This document shows positions 19,665 to 26,481 of a stretch of DNA of 64,000 bases, piece by piece; position 1 is the stretch's first letter, and every line of letters begins with the position of its first letter. This DNA comes from Candidatus Nitrosopelagicus sp. GTDB taxonomy: Archaea > Thermoproteota > Nitrososphaeria > Nitrososphaerales > Nitrosopumilaceae. A model generated the notes under the pieces. It ran no database searches. It was not told the origin of the DNA and was given only the letters and a program-made list of their open reading frames with translations. A program made the position numbers and the translations under genes. The DNA lies in the NCBI GenBank assembly GCA_028344575.1, contig JAOMBO010000002.1:1-64000 (forward strand), written 5' to 3'.

Positions 19665-20189
19665 ATGGTTGACAAGTATGAAGACCCTTTTGTAAAAATT
19701 GCAGCAATGATTGGTGGAGATGAATATCTCAAAGTTGCACGTTCTTTGTTAAAGACTGAAGATGCGACTGATGAAGAAATTGCTAGTTCAACAGGTCTTA
19801 GAATTAACATGGTTAGAAGAGTATTGTATGATTTGTTTGGAAAGGGATTGATTACGGGTGTTCGTGTAAAAGATGAAAGAAAAGGCTGGTTTGTTTATAG
19901 ATGGCGCTCAAGAAGAGATGAGGTTGAAAATTTCATAGAAAATCAAAAAAAGAAAATTCTCAATAGACTACAACAAAGATTAGATTATGAAAATTCTTCT
20001 GACTTTTACCATTGTGGTAATGAGGATTGTTCAAGAGCAACATTTGAAGATGCATTAGAATTATTTTTCAAATGTCCATCATGCGGACAAGTTCTAAAAC
20101 GTGGTGATTCAGATATAAGAAAACATGAAAAGACAAGAAAAAGCTTTTCAAAGAAAATTGATCAAATTAAAGGCGACTTGAGAGTTTAA
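19665..20189 (+). CDS. tfe: Transcription factor E (TFE alpha)
   Basis: This 174-residue homologue of the TFIIE alpha subunit stabilises the open promoter complex of archaeal RNA polymerase. An N-terminal winged helix (SLLKTEDATDEEIASSTGLR, MVRRVLYDLFGKGLI) is followed by a basic linker with WFVYRWRSRRDEVENFI. A zinc ribbon has C114-type cysteines in YHCGNEDCSRATFEDA and FKCPSCGQVL. Domain order and length are standard. The gene is convergent with arfC, overlapping it by 4 bp. Confidence 0.95.
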   Translation: MVDKYEDPFVKIAAMIGGDEYLKVARSLLKTEDATDEEIASSTGLRINMVRRVLYDLFGKGLITGVRVKDERKGWFVYRWRSRRDEVENFIENQKKKILNRLQQRLDYENSSDFYHCGNEDCSRATFEDALELFFKCPSCGQVLKRGDSDIRKHEKTRKSFSKKIDQIKGDLRV

Positions 20190-20839
20190 AATTTATAATT
20201 TAAAATAATTTCATTACCACTCTTCTGAACTTTTTTTAATTTTAAAGGTAATTTTGTTTTTAATTCTGGAAATGACATTCCTTCAAACAAACTAACAGTA
20301 TTTTTTGAGCCTAAAACATAAGGAGTTAAAGCAATAATCATTTCATCAATTAAATTTTTTTTTAAAAATGAGCGATTTAATGTTCCACCTCCTTCTAAAA
20401 GTACAGTCTTAATTCCCTTTTTTGATAAGATGGATAATAGTTTTGTTATGTTTACTTGATTTTTTCCACAAACAATTACATCAAGAGGTAATTTCTGTAA
20501 TCGATTTAGATTTGATTTCAATATAATTTCAGATGTCACAATCATTGTTGGAACATGTTTACACGTTTTAATTATTCTTGAATCATTCTTGATTGTTCCA
20601 TGGGAATCAAGAATTATTCTAATTGGGTTTTTTCCTTTAGCGTATCTGACTGTTAAGAGCGGATCATCTTCCTCTACAGTATTTTTACCAACAAGTATGG
20701 CATCAGATTTTGAGCGAAGTTTATGAACTCGTATTTTATCATCTTTTGAGGATAATACAATATGTTTATTTTTTTGGCCAATCTTTCCATCAAGAGTTAT
20801 TGCTGCACTAAGAGTAACTTTTGTTTTAGAGTTTGCCAT
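20186..20839 (-). CDS. arfC: 2,5-diamino-6-ribosylamino-pyrimidinone 5'-phosphate reductase
   Basis: This RibD C-terminal-type reductase of 217 residues reduces the ribosyl side chain of the pyrimidine intermediate in riboflavin synthesis. KVTLSAAITLDGKI is the family N-terminus. AILVGKNTVEEDDPLLTVR and TVLLEGGGTLNRSFL are the NADPH and substrate motifs. Its start overlaps the end of the amidohydrolase gene by 14 bp. It is the last gene of the riboflavin operon, with no deaminase domain of its own. Confidence 0.92.
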   Translation of the reverse strand: MANSKTKVTLSAAITLDGKIGQKNKHIVLSSKDDKIRVHKLRSKSDAILVGKNTVEEDDPLLTVRYAKGKNPIRIILDSHGTIKNDSRIIKTCKHVPTMIVTSEIILKSNLNRLQKLPLDVIVCGKNQVNITKLLSILSKKGIKTVLLEGGGTLNRSFLKKNLIDEMIIALTPYVLGSKNTVSLFEGMSFPELKTKLPLKLKKVQKSGNEIILNYKF

Positions 20840-22010
20840 TTACAATTTCACCTCCAATCATTACAGCTTTGATAGATTTTTCAGAAGCACGATGAACTAT
20901 AGATGCATGAACATTATTCATTGGTTCTAAATCAAGTGAATTTTTGTCTATGAAAATACAATCTGCAAGATAATTTTCTTTGATACAACCAATTTTCTGA
21001 TTAAGCATTTTACCTGCATTAACAGTAGCCATTTTCAATATATCTTTTGGATCAAATCTATCTTGCGACATCCCCATGGTTACCTTCCAGAGATAATCCA
21101 TTTCTCTAAAAATATCTGGAGAATTAATCATCACGTTATCTGTTCCAATTGTAAGGTTACAACCAAACTTTTGCATTAATGAAATTTTGGGAATACCTTC
21201 AGATAATGCAGAATTTGCGCGAGGACAAACAACAATTCCACGTGTGTTTTTTGCTGCAAGTTTCAAGTCATTGTTTGTTGCAAAAGTCATGTGAATTAGA
21301 AATGATGGATTAAGCAACATTGCCCTTTGAACTTCTGTTTTTCCAGTTACCTTCTTTGATGTATTTGCACTATCTTTTGTTTCAGCTGCATGAATTGCAC
21401 GAATTTTTTTTGTTTTTGAATATGATTTTAGGTTTGAATTACTATTTTCATTAGTTCCACTGATACCAATTCCATCACAGTTTTTCAATAATCGTGTTAA
21501 TTTTTCGATATTTTCATCAGGGAAAGGAAGATTTTGTTTGATTTCATTTTTCGTATTGTAATAATCAATTCGTCCTAAAATTACATAGCGAATAGGAATA
21601 TTATGTAATGCAGATTTTAGTAGAAATATACCGTCTAAACCACCTTCTCTAAAATCAATAAAAGTTGTAATTCCTTTTTTTATCATTGATTTTGCAGAAT
21701 TACGAATATATTTTGCTAGAGATTTTTTTGGAGTTTCTTTGAGCAACTTTTGTTTTAATCCAAACATTGGATGAATTTTTGAATCAACATCTGCATTAAT
21801 TGACAAATCTTTCCCAATTGAATCTGCAATATGTGTATGAGAATTGATGAAGCCAGGAATTAATAATAAATTTGAACAATCAATTGTTTTTTCTTTTGAA
21901 GAGATGTTTTTTGAAATTTTTTGAAATTTTTTATTTTTAATCTGCACATTAGTAGATTCCATTAATTTTAATTCATTTCCATATAATACGCTAATGTTTT
22001 TTAGAATCAA
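20826..22010 (-). CDS. Amidohydrolase (deaminase-type) inside the riboflavin operon
   Basis: This 394-residue amidohydrolase-superfamily enzyme is most like the cytosine/SAH/triazine deaminase branch. Metal ligands are visible as HTH in GFINSHTHIADSIG (about residue 57), the H and E of IRAIHAAETKD, H in FLIHMTFATN and D in LTIGTDNVM. The gene sits between arfA and arfC with overlaps of 4 and 14 bp. Archaeal riboflavin synthesis needs a formamide hydrolase (ArfB) and a pyrimidine deaminase; neither is otherwise present here. Either role would suit this enzyme, though a guanine/SAH-type salvage function remains possible. Confidence 0.85.
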   Translation of the reverse strand: MILKNISVLYGNELKLMESTNVQIKNKKFQKISKNISSKEKTIDCSNLLLIPGFINSHTHIADSIGKDLSINADVDSKIHPMFGLKQKLLKETPKKSLAKYIRNSAKSMIKKGITTFIDFREGGLDGIFLLKSALHNIPIRYVILGRIDYYNTKNEIKQNLPFPDENIEKLTRLLKNCDGIGISGTNENSNSNLKSYSKTKKIRAIHAAETKDSANTSKKVTGKTEVQRAMLLNPSFLIHMTFATNNDLKLAAKNTRGIVVCPRANSALSEGIPKISLMQKFGCNLTIGTDNVMINSPDIFREMDYLWKVTMGMSQDRFDPKDILKMATVNAGKMLNQKIGCIKENYLADCIFIDKNSLDLEPMNNVHASIVHRASEKSIKAVMIGGEIVNGKL

Positions 22011-22759
22011 TTTAATTCATAGATTTCAGGTTTTTCTTTTCCTGCATCTCTAATTTCTCTAATTGTATCAAGAGATTCAGTTGCAAGTTTAACAGCATCT
22101 CTTGAAGTTGATGCAGTACCTATTCCACAATTTAGCTCAATTTGAAATTCATCTTTACATATCTGGATGAAATCTTTTGCAAAAGTTTTGAATTCAGAGT
22201 TTGTTACAACCATGAAATTATCACCACCCATGAAAAATGTCAGTGAATTTTTTGAAAGAAAGTATTCAGACATTCTTGAATAAATTTTGAACATCAATGA
22301 AGAAGTGTCATATGGAGACATGCTCTTTTTTCTTATAGATGTTATATCATCAACATCCAAGTGCATTACAGTAACAGAATGTTCTGAATGTCCATTTAGT
22401 ATTCCAAAAATAGAATATTGTTCATTTAGGAATTTTTGAGATTTTTTTGCTTCATATGCATCTAAATTTGCATCATATGGATTATCACCATTTCCAATTG
22501 ACATTGAGAGTTTTATATCAAAAGTTGATTCCAATTCCTTTTGGATTTGAATGTGATCATCAAGTGAAAGGCCATTTGTGACTGAGAAATATTCATCAGA
22601 GCGATTGAGAAATACCAAACAATTTTTCTTTGAGAATAACTCTTGAAGCTTGTTGTATAATTTTGATTGTAACATTTGTAATTCATGTTCACGGTCAAAT
22701 CCTAAAGTTAGAGTCCAAGGACCGTATCCTGTGATTTTCATTATTGTTAATTGAATCAT
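22007..22759 (-). CDS. arfA: GTP cyclohydrolase III (archaeal FAPy-forming type)
   Basis: This 250-residue enzyme opens GTP to the formamidopyrimidine nucleotide, the first step of archaeal riboflavin synthesis. The N-terminus ITGYGPWTLTLGFDREHELQ and LQSKLYNKLQELF match the Methanocaldococcus enzyme family. FFMGGDNFMVV (near residue 190) and ELNCGIGTASTSRDA are the second cyclase-like motifs. The fold is that of nucleotidyl cyclases, duplicated. It has 4-bp overlaps with both ribH upstream and the amidohydrolase downstream. Confidence 0.92.
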   Translation of the reverse strand: MIQLTIMKITGYGPWTLTLGFDREHELQMLQSKLYNKLQELFSKKNCLVFLNRSDEYFSVTNGLSLDDHIQIQKELESTFDIKLSMSIGNGDNPYDANLDAYEAKKSQKFLNEQYSIFGILNGHSEHSVTVMHLDVDDITSIRKKSMSPYDTSSLMFKIYSRMSEYFLSKNSLTFFMGGDNFMVVTNSEFKTFAKDFIQICKDEFQIELNCGIGTASTSRDAVKLATESLDTIREIRDAGKEKPEIYELN

Positions 22760-23172
22760 TTTTCTATCTCCTTAATCTCATTGTATACTTTGAATACAGC
22801 ATTGACAGCATTTTCAGAAACTGGTCTTATTCTTGCATATGCTTGTCTTACCTGCATACCTGGACCTGAAATTCCAAGTGAAACAGGTTTTTGATGTTTG
22901 AGGGATAATTTAGCTATATTTCTTGCAGTTGAATGTGCAATTACTTCATCATGTTTTGTCTGACCTTTAATTACTGCACCCAAAGTTACTACAGCATCTA
23001 TATCACTTCTTTGTAATAACTTATCAATAATTAATGGCATATCAAAAATTCCTGTAACATTACTTGTATGTACAACATCAACATTAAGTTTTTTTGCAGT
23101 TTCTAATGCAACATCATACATACGTGATGTAATCTTTTGGTTGAATTCTGCTACCACTATTGCAATTTTCAA
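22756..23172 (-). CDS. ribH: 6,7-dimethyl-8-ribityllumazine synthase
   Basis: This 138-residue enzyme condenses the ribitylaminouracil with dihydroxybutanone phosphate. It is somewhat shorter than bacterial RibH, as is common in archaea. Visible motifs are IAIVVAEFNQKITSRM, TSNVTGIFDMPLIIDKLL, VTLGAVIKGQTKHDEVI and KPVSLGISGPGM. The gene lies 2 bp after ribB and overlaps arfA by 4 bp. Confidence 0.95.
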   Translation of the reverse strand: MKIAIVVAEFNQKITSRMYDVALETAKKLNVDVVHTSNVTGIFDMPLIIDKLLQRSDIDAVVTLGAVIKGQTKHDEVIAHSTARNIAKLSLKHQKPVSLGISGPGMQVRQAYARIRPVSENAVNAVFKVYNEIKEIEK

Positions 23173-23174
23173 AA

Positions 23175-23849
23175 TTAATTCACCTTGGCAAATTCAAGTA
23201 ATTCTTTGCCATCAATGAAAGGAATTGCATTTTCTTTTGCATATTTTTCTGCTTTATCAACGGATAATGCAGAATATGTTTCAGAATCCATCATTTCACA
23301 GATAGCAGTAATTGGAGAAAGATTTGCTAATTGAGCCAAGTATACTGACATTTCTGTATGACCAGTTCTAGAAGAAAGAAGACCGTTTGATGCAATCAGT
23401 AATGGAACATGCCCAGGAGTTTTAAAAGTTGAATTGAAATATTGTTTTGGATTTTCATTTTTGTATAATGTTGACATTTCTTTGATAGTTAATGCTCTAT
23501 CTCTATCAGTAATTCCAGTATAGGTTTGTTTATGATTAATACTAATTGAAAATGTCGGATGATCACCATATGGAGCAGTACCCATAATCATTTTTTTGGA
23601 TTCTTCATCAAGTTCATTTGAGGAAGATAACATGTTATGCATGTATTTCAGTTGTAATTTTTCTGCAAGTAAATTATCAATAGCCAAACAGAGTAAACCG
23701 CCAGCATGTTTTCTCATTCGGACAATGTGTTCGGGTGTTACAAACTCTGCTGCTACCACCATATCAATTTCATTTTCACGACCATCAGAATCATGAATCA
23801 TTACAAATTCACCTCGTTTTAATGACGAAAGTGCAGAATCAAAGGTCAT
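23175..23849 (-). CDS. ribB: 3,4-dihydroxy-2-butanone 4-phosphate synthase
   Basis: This enzyme makes the four-carbon unit of riboflavin from ribulose 5-phosphate. The start MTFDSALSSLKRGEFVMIHD at 23849 is preferred over an upstream codon at 23906. It fits the family N-terminus, and a TATA-like TTTATAAT about 26-30 bases upstream suggests a leaderless mRNA. DGRENEIDMVVAAEFVTPEH is the catalytic acidic loop. TDRDRALTI, TPGHVPLL and GHTEMSVYLAQLA follow. The product is about 224 residues and monofunctional; no GTP cyclohydrolase II domain is attached. Confidence 0.93.
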   Translation of the reverse strand: MTFDSALSSLKRGEFVMIHDSDGRENEIDMVVAAEFVTPEHIVRMRKHAGGLLCLAIDNLLAEKLQLKYMHNMLSSSNELDEESKKMIMGTAPYGDHPTFSISINHKQTYTGITDRDRALTIKEMSTLYKNENPKQYFNSTFKTPGHVPLLIASNGLLSSRTGHTEMSVYLAQLANLSPITAICEMMDSETYSALSVDKAEKYAKENAIPFIDGKELLEFAKVN

Positions 23850-23924
23850 AGAAAAAAATGAATTTTTAGTTATTATAAAGTTTACTAGATTTATTGTTAT
23901 TACCAATAAATTGGTAGTTAGAAT

Positions 23925-24509
23925 TTATTTTAAAATGTATTTTCCAAGTACATCAGTCTCGATGTTTAGTTTATCTTCAATATTTTTTGTTTTAAAATTA
24001 GTAATTTGAATTGTATGTGGGATGAGACAAACAGAACCTAAGTCATTTTTTACATCAACAACTGTTAAACTTATTCCATCTAATGCAATGGAACCTTTTT
24101 CAACAACATATTTTTTTAAATTTTTTGGAATCTTAAACCAAATTTTTACTTCCTTTGATTTTTTCTCAATTTTTTTAATTTGTGCTACACCGTCAACATG
24201 ACCTAATACAAAATGTCCTTCTAATCTTTCACCTACTTTCAAACTTCGTTCAACATTTACAATACTTCCAACCTTAAGATTTCCCAAATCTGTTTTTTTC
24301 ATTGTTTCATCAATCATTTCAAATGTAGAGATATTTTTTACAATTTTTGTTGCACTAAGACATACACCATTTAATGCAACACTTTGACCAATTTTTAATC
24401 CCTTTGAATCTTTACCAAGATCAACAGATACTTTAATTGCACTACGATTTTTTGTATTTTGTTCTATTTTCTTAATTTTTCCAGTACTAGTAATTATTCC
24501 AGTAAACAT
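23925..24509 (-). CDS. ribE: Riboflavin synthase, bacterial alpha-chain type
   Basis: This 194-residue two-barrel protein dismutates lumazine to riboflavin. MFTGIITSTGKIK is the family start. SVALNGVCLSAT in the first barrel and GSIALDGISLTVVDVKND in the second show the duplicated domain. Euryarchaeal methanogens use a different, lumazine-synthase-like enzyme (RibC), so the bacterial-type enzyme here is a difference from that group. It is the head of the riboflavin gene run, 75 bp upstream of ribB. Confidence 0.93.
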   Translation of the reverse strand: MFTGIITSTGKIKKIEQNTKNRSAIKVSVDLGKDSKGLKIGQSVALNGVCLSATKIVKNISTFEMIDETMKKTDLGNLKVGSIVNVERSLKVGERLEGHFVLGHVDGVAQIKKIEKKSKEVKIWFKIPKNLKKYVVEKGSIALDGISLTVVDVKNDLGSVCLIPHTIQITNFKTKNIEDKLNIETDVLGKYILK

Positions 24510-24542: not shown

Positions 24543-25397
24543 TTAGATAATTTCTAATAATGCTTTAGCACGTTTATAATGAACTTCGTCAATCATTTTT
24601 CCATCCACTACAATCGCACCTCTTCCCTTCTTTGTTGATTTTTCATATTCTTTAACTACTAATTTAGACCAAGAAATTTCTGAAGAGTTAGGATGAAATA
24701 TTTTATGAGTTATTTTTATTTGATCAGGATGGATAATGCTTTTTCCTGAATAGCCTAATTCTTTTCCTAGTTTACAGTCTTTCTCTAAACCCCCTTCATC
24801 TTTAATTTCTTGCCAAATTCCATCTATAGCAGCAACTCCTGCCGCAGCTGCTGCAACCGACACTTTGTATCTAGAATATTTTCCACCGAGTGGATTTCCT
24901 TTTGTATATTCAATTTGCATATCATTCAACAAATCAAATATTCCAAATACTATGGCATCAATTCTCTTACTTGATGATGAAATTTCATAGCAGTTTATCA
25001 CACCTAAAGCAGATTCTATAGAAGGAATTAGGCGTATTTTTTTCAATTTTCTTTTCTTTTCCAAGCTTGAAATAATTTTTTCAATTTTTTTCAGTTCTTT
25101 TGCTGAATCAACTTTAGGTATGACTATTCCATCCAACCCTTTTTGAACAATTTTTTCTAAATCACTAGGAACTTTTCCAGATTGTGGCGAATTAGTTCTA
25201 ACAAAGACTGATGCCTTGAAATCTTTACGCTCTTTCAATTTTTTTGCGATTAAAGTTCTAGCATTTTGTTTTTCTTTATCAGGTACAGAATCTTCTAAAT
25301 CAAAACATACAATATCTCCAGAAAGTGATTTTGCTTTTTCTAAGAATCGTGGATTATTTCCGGGTACAAAAATTAGACTTCGAAAAAGATTTGTCAT
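24543..25397 (-). CDS. HpcH/HpaI aldolase family, CitE-like acyl-CoA lyase
   Basis: This 284-residue TIM-barrel lyase is of the citrate lyase beta/malyl-CoA lyase group. LIFVPGNNPRFLEKA and CFDLEDSVPDKEKQNAR hold the CoA- and metal-binding residues. VFVRTNSPQSG, IVIPKVDSAKEL and LIPSIESALGV are conserved barrel strands, and KSIIHPDQIKITH closes the site. Family members act as malyl-CoA or citramalyl-CoA lyases or thioesterases; no partner subunit is nearby to decide. It lies 7 bp downstream of the second MDR gene and may be co-transcribed with it. Confidence 0.85.
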   Translation of the reverse strand: MTNLFRSLIFVPGNNPRFLEKAKSLSGDIVCFDLEDSVPDKEKQNARTLIAKKLKERKDFKASVFVRTNSPQSGKVPSDLEKIVQKGLDGIVIPKVDSAKELKKIEKIISSLEKKRKLKKIRLIPSIESALGVINCYEISSSSKRIDAIVFGIFDLLNDMQIEYTKGNPLGGKYSRYKVSVAAAAAGVAAIDGIWQEIKDEGGLEKDCKLGKELGYSGKSIIHPDQIKITHKIFHPNSSEISWSKLVVKEYEKSTKKGRGAIVVDGKMIDEVHYKRAKALLEII

Positions 25398-25404
25398 TAA
25401 ATGA

Positions 25405-26481
25405 CTATGCGCCTTCAGGCTTCAAAAGGATTTTGCCGAAGAACTTACCAGATAACATTTTTGTGTGAGCCTCTGCTGCTTGCTCAAATGTATAAACTGA
25501 GTCAACTGCGGCTTTAATTTTTCCTTGACCCATCCAGTATAGACCTTCATCAAGTTCAGCCTTTGTTCCTTGTGTTGAACCTAGAACATTAATTCCTTTG
25601 AAAAATATGTGTCTAAGATCTATTTTTGCGTCATAACCGGTTGTTGCGCCACATGAAACTAGAGTTGCACCGTATTTGAGCAATTGTAGTTGCTTGTTAA
25701 AGTGAGTTTCACCAATATGATCAAATGATAAATCAATTCCTGGTGCTTGACCTTTTGTTTTAGCAATTTCTTTTGAAATTTTGAAGACTTGTTTACTCCA
25801 GTCTTCTTGTCTATGATCTACTGCATGATCTGCACCTAATTCAAGACATTTATCAAGTTTGTCAGGACTAGCAGTTGCAATAACATCACAGTTGTATAAT
25901 TTAGCAATTTGAATTGCAAAACTTCCAACACCAGAACCACCACCCATAACAAGTACGGTTTGACCTGGAGTAATTTTTGCTCTTCCAACTAACATGTGCC
26001 ATGAGGTTAAAATTGTCATGGATGCTGCGGCTGCATCTTCATATGATACTCCTTCTGGAATATGTGAAACATTAACTTCTGGTAAATGAACTTCTTCACT
26101 GTATGCACCCCATAGTGGGCCGGTTTGGAAACCCCAAACTTGTCTTCGTGTACAATCGAATTCTCTTCCACTTGTACAAGCACTACAAACTCTACATGCT
26201 AAATTAGAATGAGAAACAACTCTATCACCAACTTTGAAACCTTTTACATCTTCACCAACTGCAATAACATCTCCTGCAACATCAGAACCTGAAACGTGTG
26301 GTAGAGGAATTGCAATTGGAACACCTCTCATTCCCCAAATATCATTATAGTTTAGAGCAGATGCTTTATTTGTAAAAACTACCTCATCTGGTTTTGGTTT
26401 TGGTGAATCAATATCTTCAACCTTGAGGATTTTTGCATAATCGTCATCAGGTGCATATTCACGATAAACAACTGCTTTCAT
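25405..26481 (-). CDS. Zinc-type MDR oxidoreductase, enoyl-CoA reductase-like (paralog 2)
   Basis: This 358-residue paralog of the gene at 11366-12439 shares most positions with it. The same CRVCSACTSGREFDC zinc motif, the same ALNYNDIWGMRG without catalytic zinc ligand, and MGGGSGVGSFAIQIAK for NAD(P) are present. It ends KILLKPEGA. As an acryloyl-CoA or other enoyl-CoA reductase it would fit the carbon-fixation cycle of ammonia-oxidising archaea. It precedes the CitE-like lyase by 7 bp. Which of the two paralogs does which reaction is not readable from sequence. Confidence 0.87.
   Translation of the reverse strand: MKAVVYREYAPDDDYAKILKVEDIDSPKPKPDEVVFTNKASALNYNDIWGMRGVPIAIPLPHVSGSDVAGDVIAVGEDVKGFKVGDRVVSHSNLACRVCSACTSGREFDCTRRQVWGFQTGPLWGAYSEEVHLPEVNVSHIPEGVSYEDAAAASMTILTSWHMLVGRAKITPGQTVLVMGGGSGVGSFAIQIAKLYNCDVIATASPDKLDKCLELGADHAVDHRQEDWSKQVFKISKEIAKTKGQAPGIDLSFDHIGETHFNKQLQLLKYGATLVSCGATTGYDAKIDLRHIFFKGINVLGSTQGTKAELDEGLYWMGQGKIKAAVDSVYTFEQAAEAHTKMLSGKFFGKILLKPEGA

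Follow-up and report, generated by a model that had tools for sequence, protein, structure and literature searches.

A COG0402-type amidohydrolase of the riboflavin operon as the candidate pyrimidine deaminase of archaeal riboflavin and F420 biosynthesis

The riboflavin operon of the window

The window, i.e., the whole stretch of 64,000 nt that was analysed, comes from a Nitrosopelagicus-like archaeon, a marine ammonia oxidiser, and carries on its minus strand a run of genes in the order ribE-ribB-ribH-arfA-AMH-arfC, where AMH is the label used here for a COG0402-type amidohydrolase of 394 residues. Each member of the operon is identified by Pfam and NCBIfam profiles, which confirms the gene assignments proposed earlier in a sequence-only reading of the same DNA. 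The first gene (23925..24509) encodes a bacterial-type riboflavin synthase, RibE (NF006767, 216.4 bits against a cut-off of 155; Pfam Lum_binding), and is followed by the genes of the DHBP synthase RibB (23175..23906; TIGR00506, 219.6 bits against a cut-off of 177.45; Pfam DHBP_synthase), which likely has a later start near 23849, and of the lumazine synthase RibH (22756..23172; TIGR00114, 127 bits against a cut-off of 84.6; Pfam DMRL_synthase). Next come the GTP cyclohydrolase III, ArfA (22007..22759; GCH_III, 2.5e-51), and AMH itself (20826..22010), a clean frame with a TTG start and the predicted 2,5-diamino-6-(ribitylamino)-4(3H)-pyrimidinone 5'-phosphate deaminase. The operon closes with ArfC (20186..20839), a RibD_C-type pyrimidine reductase without a deaminase domain (RibD_C, 9.5e-50), which scores 189.5 bits on TIGR00227, above its cut-off, and 174.9 bits on TIGR01508, slightly below the cut-off of 186.45. 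From ribH to arfC the gene ends overlap, by 4 nt between RibH and ArfA, 4 nt between ArfA and AMH, and 14 nt between AMH and ArfC. A sigma-70 promoter scan gave nothing above shuffled sequences, the sigma-70 model not being applicable to archaea.

Just upstream of ribE, and on the same strand, lie a gene for a CitE/HpcH-like lyase (24543-25397) and a zinc alcohol-dehydrogenase/acryloyl-CoA-reductase-like gene (25405-26481); ORFs of similar size precede ribE in many loci of the Nitrososphaerales (e.g., L043, L046, L049, L051, L055, L206).

Family, conserved residues and predicted fold

AMH matches Amidohydro_1 (PF01979) over residues 50-390 (2.4e-39) and the NF005552/PRK07213 “chlorohydrolase” family at 344.5 bits, where the cut-off is 294. 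Its nearest named records, 93-95% identical, come from Candidatus Nitrosopelagicus. The creatininase (PF02633) and ArfB (NF033501) profiles are absent among the matches listed for AMH, and the Pfam/NCBIfam search gave no match to a cytidine-deaminase-like domain (PF00383). The AlphaFold2 model (pLDDT 96, pTM 0.94) retrieves adenosine, MTA/SAH, guanine and isocytosine deaminases from the PDB in a Foldseek search, the highest query TM-score among the matches listed being 0.87, for the isocytosine deaminase 7ww2; the triazine chlorohydrolases AtzA and TrzN also rank high. AMH is therefore placed in COG0402/Amidohydro_1 by a near-full-length profile match, by the TIM-barrel fold of the predicted model and by its HxH, HxxE, H and D residues.

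These residues were compared across 35 AMH orthologues, 5 divergent AMH sequences and 12 COG0402 paralogues found in the same genomes or in related ones, the paralogues forming one clade in the tree (support 100/100). The metal-binding HxH motif, H58-T-H60 (21831..21839, minus strand, as for all residues given here), is invariant in 35/35 orthologues and likewise present in 12/12 paralogues. Equally invariant are the HAAE motif (21381..21392), with H207 as predicted metal ligand and E210 as predicted general acid/base of a deaminase, H240 (21291..21293), a predicted metal or active-site histidine, and D291 within GTDN (21138..21140), the predicted metal ligand or catalytic aspartate. The earlier observation that all deaminase-type metal ligands are kept thus holds throughout the 35 orthologues, and H58, H60, H207, E210, H240 and D291 are all common to these and the 12 paralogues.

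A second set of residues is particular to AMH. D63, K86, E122 and N292 are fixed in the 35 orthologues and the 5 divergent sequences, as is R264 in all but one of the divergent ones, and none of the five is found at its position in the 12 paralogues. K86 (21753..21755), a candidate phosphate or substrate contact, is lysine in 35/35 AMH and 5/5 divergent AMH sequences and in 0/12 paralogues; R264 in the motif CPRxN (21219..21221), a candidate phosphate contact, is arginine in 35/35, 4/5 and 0/12, respectively. At the position of N292 the paralogues have G or S.

Co-occurrence with ArfA within the class

The class was surveyed in 120 genomes, all at least 80% complete except that of the window, which is 65.8% complete. 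ArfA (PF05165) occurs in 99 of them, and an ArfC-type reductase is found in the same 99. Every ArfA-bearing genome (99/99) also has AMH, and in 98 of these AMH lies directly downstream of ArfA, at 27-120 bp as measured between profile matches; the one exception is a split assembly with ArfA and AMH on different contigs. Conversely, 21 genomes have no ArfA: the best COG0402 protein was read in 19 of them and shows the AMH signature in 0/19, and the remaining two, judged by score only, are at paralogue level. One complete genome of 1.5 Mb from the same order (G084) is without ArfA, AMH, ArfC and creatininase all together, which suggests that it has lost riboflavin synthesis. The NF005552 cut-off is exceeded in 93/120 genomes of the class, and most genomes of the order have no COG0402 protein besides AMH that matches the profile strongly.

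A RibD-type or cytidine-deaminase-fold enzyme was also considered as the main route to deamination and was rejected. RibD scores above its cut-off in 0/120 genomes of the class; the strong matches to the RibD model in these 120 genomes span the reductase half only (positions about 97-342), with a few weak short matches elsewhere, and the sole PF00383 match in the genome of the window is dCMP-deaminase-like.

AMH in other classes and in F420 clusters

In 11 genomes from other classes AMH immediately follows ArfA, as it does in two named records, Bathyarchaeota JdFR-04 (L135) and archaeon isolate H03B2 (L136). Related genomes are not independent, yet the ArfA-AMH arrangement recurs in several classes. 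In L136 RibB, RibC, RibH, ArfA, AMH, ArfC and a creatininase-family ArfB candidate are encoded in one run; the operon of L135 comprises RibH, ArfA, AMH, ArfC and creatininase. The riboflavin synthase differs between the two kinds of operon, being the bacterial-type RibE (23925-24509) in that of the ammonia-oxidising archaea and the archaeal-type RibC in L136 (L136:4278-4748), where it adjoins RibH; the rest of the L136 operon matches that of the ammonia-oxidising archaea. Of the known steps of the pathway, L136 leaves only those of the deaminase and the phosphatase to be filled, and since AMH belongs to a superfamily of deaminases, deamination is the natural reading of its role.

A further group of loci links AMH to the cofactor F420 and makes a separate line of evidence. 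Two loci (L040, L041) have the order cofG-cofH-arfA-AMH-arfC and are without ribB, ribH and ribE; AMH-arfC-cofG-cofH is found in G206 (L115) and G135 (L116), which have AMH without a recognised ArfA, and AMH-ArfC-creatininase-CofG-CofH in G267. In G206 a DUF447 protein lies directly before AMH. The substrate of CofH is 5-amino-6-(D-ribitylamino)uracil, a deaminated intermediate, and the presence of AMH in F420 clusters thus places its action at or before the split between flavin and F420 synthesis.

In the Methanobacteria, represented by the phylum of a Methanobacteriaceae record, AMH is strong, with the NF005552 cut-off exceeded in 65/66 genomes, a Methanobacteriota sample that contained no identified Methanocaldococcus; in the loci examined it does not lie beside rib genes. 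Not every genome that uses ArfA has AMH, since the genomes of family f19 (G127, G134, G173; L129, L130, L131) have ArfA-ArfC-RibB with a divergent creatininase next door, and no AMH orthologue was found in them. To judge from this gene content, a different deaminase must act in that family.

Proposed reaction and its alternatives

When these lines of evidence are taken together, AMH is very probably the enzyme that deaminates the pyrimidine in archaeal riboflavin and F420 biosynthesis, a reading that is well supported because operon position, co-occurrence with ArfA, F420 operons, the absence of a RibD deaminase, the deaminase fold and the metal ligands all point to it. We infer the following reaction, including the substrate, its phosphorylation state, whether ArfC acts first and what K86 and R264 do. 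ArfA would open GTP, ArfB would remove the formyl group and ArfC would reduce the ribosyl chain; AMH would act next, hydrolysing the 2-amino group on the isocytosine ring of 2,5-diamino-6-(ribitylamino)-4(3H)-pyrimidinone 5'-phosphate to give ammonia and 5-amino-6-(ribitylamino)uracil 5'-phosphate. The water would be activated by a mononuclear metal held by H58, H60, H207 and D291; E210 and H240 would assist in the way known from guanine and adenosine deaminases, and K86 and R264 are plausible contacts for the ribityl phosphate. Isocytosine is 2-amino-4-oxopyrimidine, and guanine and isocytosine deaminases of the same superfamily remove this very amino group; on the other hand, TIM-barrel deaminases switch substrate easily, which counts against the assignment, as do the f19 genomes with ArfA but no AMH, the two genomes with AMH but no recognised ArfA, the methanobacterial loci where AMH lies away from rib genes, the ArfA/AMH/ArfC genomes in which no creatininase is recognised, the high Foldseek rank of chlorohydrolases and the 65.8% completeness of the genome of the window.

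A variant of this scheme, which we regard as unlikely, has AMH deaminate the ribosyl compound before ArfC acts, as does bacterial RibD, which deaminates before reduction. The gene order arfA-AMH-arfC would agree with it, but the order in M. jannaschii is reduction and then deamination, as Graupner and colleagues reportedly found in 2002. It is decidedly unlikely that AMH is instead a salvage or repair deaminase (of SAH, 5'-deoxyadenosine or guanine) that came to lie in the operon by chance: although MTA/SAH and adenosine deaminases are among its nearest relatives of known structure, and COG0402 members frequently act on SAH-, 5'-deoxyadenosine- or guanine-type substrates, it keeps its place in several classes and in F420 operons as well, its loss tracks that of ArfA, and its signature is absent from the paralogues in genomes that also have AMH.

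The creatininase-family protein and the ArfB step

The sequence-only reading had left two functions open to AMH, pyrimidine deaminase or a non-homologous ArfB, on the grounds that neither an ArfB nor a deaminase appeared in the operon. This is correct for the operon, but not for ArfB in the genome as a whole: the genome search proposed at the time was run and returned one creatininase-family (PF02633) protein of 231 residues on another contig (G000:C14:18500-19147, equivalent to L001:1474-2169). The gene abuts one for a PurU-like formyltetrahydrofolate deformylase (L001:621-1472). With the ArfB model NF033501, whose cut-off is 180, the protein reaches 57 bits, so it is a candidate ArfB by family and distribution rather than by the model. 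Proteins of the creatininase family occur in 94 of the 99 ArfA-bearing genomes of the class, mostly in single copy, and in the creatininase tree the copies within the order group into a single clade (100/99), except for additional ones in family f3; this tree neither supports nor rejects the single thaumarchaeal copy as sister to the operonic ArfB candidates. The creatininase-family gene of ammonia-oxidising archaea, which tracks ArfA, is probably ArfB.

AMH and a creatininase-family ArfB candidate also share one cluster in L137 and are encoded near each other in G008 and G285, the creatininase of G008 being very divergent (89 bits). Four genomes (G012, G016, G031, G039; L037-L041) have ArfA, AMH and ArfC and show no creatininase at E <= 0.001; in three of them cofG/cofH is shown or likely beside these genes. 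They are the basis for supposing that AMH performs both deformylation and deamination, at least in creatininase-less lineages, which we hold to be very improbable, as these genomes are 82-95% complete and the divergence of the G008 creatininase makes a missed or unassembled ArfB likelier; besides, other formamidases exist. That AMH is simply a non-homologous ArfB deformylating the ArfA product is scarcely tenable, since its place as a hydrolase directly after ArfA and the four genomes without a recognised creatininase are outweighed by the creatininase-family protein in nearly all ArfA genomes, that of the window included, by the deaminase type of its metal site and by the loci L136, L135, L137 and G267 (and, at close distance, G008 and G285), where AMH has the ArfB candidate beside it and is hence unlikely to substitute for it. 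Of the two functions first proposed, deaminase is therefore the one that is well supported, by operon, co-occurrence with ArfA, fold and ligands, and ArfB the one that is not.

Significance

The Thaumarchaeota have been described as universally carrying a creatininase (COG1402/PF02633), which is read together with a COG0402 “cytosine deaminase” as creatinine degradation (PMC7848895). In the class both proteins track ArfA, and they are probably ArfB and the riboflavin deaminase, which is the simplest reading of the two genes. We consider it reasonably likely that, with the single creatininase-family gene as ArfB and AMH as the deaminase, both predicted hydrolases of the archaeal riboflavin/F420 trunk are identified in ammonia-oxidising archaea, that the inference of creatinine degradation in Thaumarchaeota stems from two misread genes of vitamin B2 synthesis, and that the deaminase is a widespread and unrelated replacement of RibD. 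If the deaminase is confirmed, “chlorohydrolase” and “cytosine deaminase” annotations would be replaced across archaea, an unrelated enzyme would be seen at an indispensable point of vitamin synthesis, and the claim, made from gene content, that ammonia-oxidising archaea use creatinine would be undercut (PMC7848895). The case is unusually clean, combining an operon, a single copy, signature residues and full-pathway operons in relatives, and a single protein, together with enzymes in current use, would suffice for a direct test of the deaminase step.

Comparison with known systems

The archaeal deaminase had been called unassigned in the sequence-only reading, but according to Table 6 of PMC8305020 MJ0699/HVO_2483 was predicted as the archaeal pyrimidine deaminase by Rodionova et al. 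2017 (NAR). There HVO_2483, 34% identical to MJ0699, is tabulated as a “prediction” between arfC and the missing phosphatase. The earlier statement is right in so far as the literature, as far as could be found, holds no enzyme assay for the archaeal deaminase step. We regard AMH as the putative thaumarchaeal orthologue of this predicted enzyme because NF005552 has matches at E <= 1e-20 in the genomes of both M. jannaschii and H. volcanii, a genome-level result in which the matching gene may not be MJ0699 or HVO_2483. AMH would share with the tabulated pair the pathway position between ArfC and the phosphatase, and shows the ArfA/ArfC linkage and co-occurrence in 99/99 genomes, adjacent in 98. 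New in the present analysis are the survey of the class, the operons that span the full pathway or belong to F420, the arguments against ArfB and the residue signature. With respect to NF005552/PRK07213, AMH exceeds the cut-off, but the family name implies a chlorohydrolase, whereas the context of AMH points to riboflavin and F420; no evidence was seen for a chlorohydrolase activity behind the name.

AMH shares the TIM-barrel (query TM-score 0.78-0.87, predicted model) and the HxH, HxxE, H and D ligands with the COG0402 deaminases, such as the isocytosine deaminase Vcz (7ww2), guanine deaminase, the MTA/SAH deaminase TM0936 and the adenosine deaminase of P. aeruginosa (4gbd). It differs from them in being only 13-20% identical and in D63, K86, E122 and N292, which among the sequences compared are fixed in AMH alone, as R264 nearly is. 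ArfB (NF033501)/BrbF, of the creatininase family, is a pathway partner and also a hydrolase; its fold and family differ from those of AMH, and both co-occur. Finally, the deaminase domain of bacterial RibD takes the 2-amino group off the pyrimidine in the equivalent step, but with an unrelated cytidine-deaminase fold, and AMH would be its unrelated TIM-barrel replacement.
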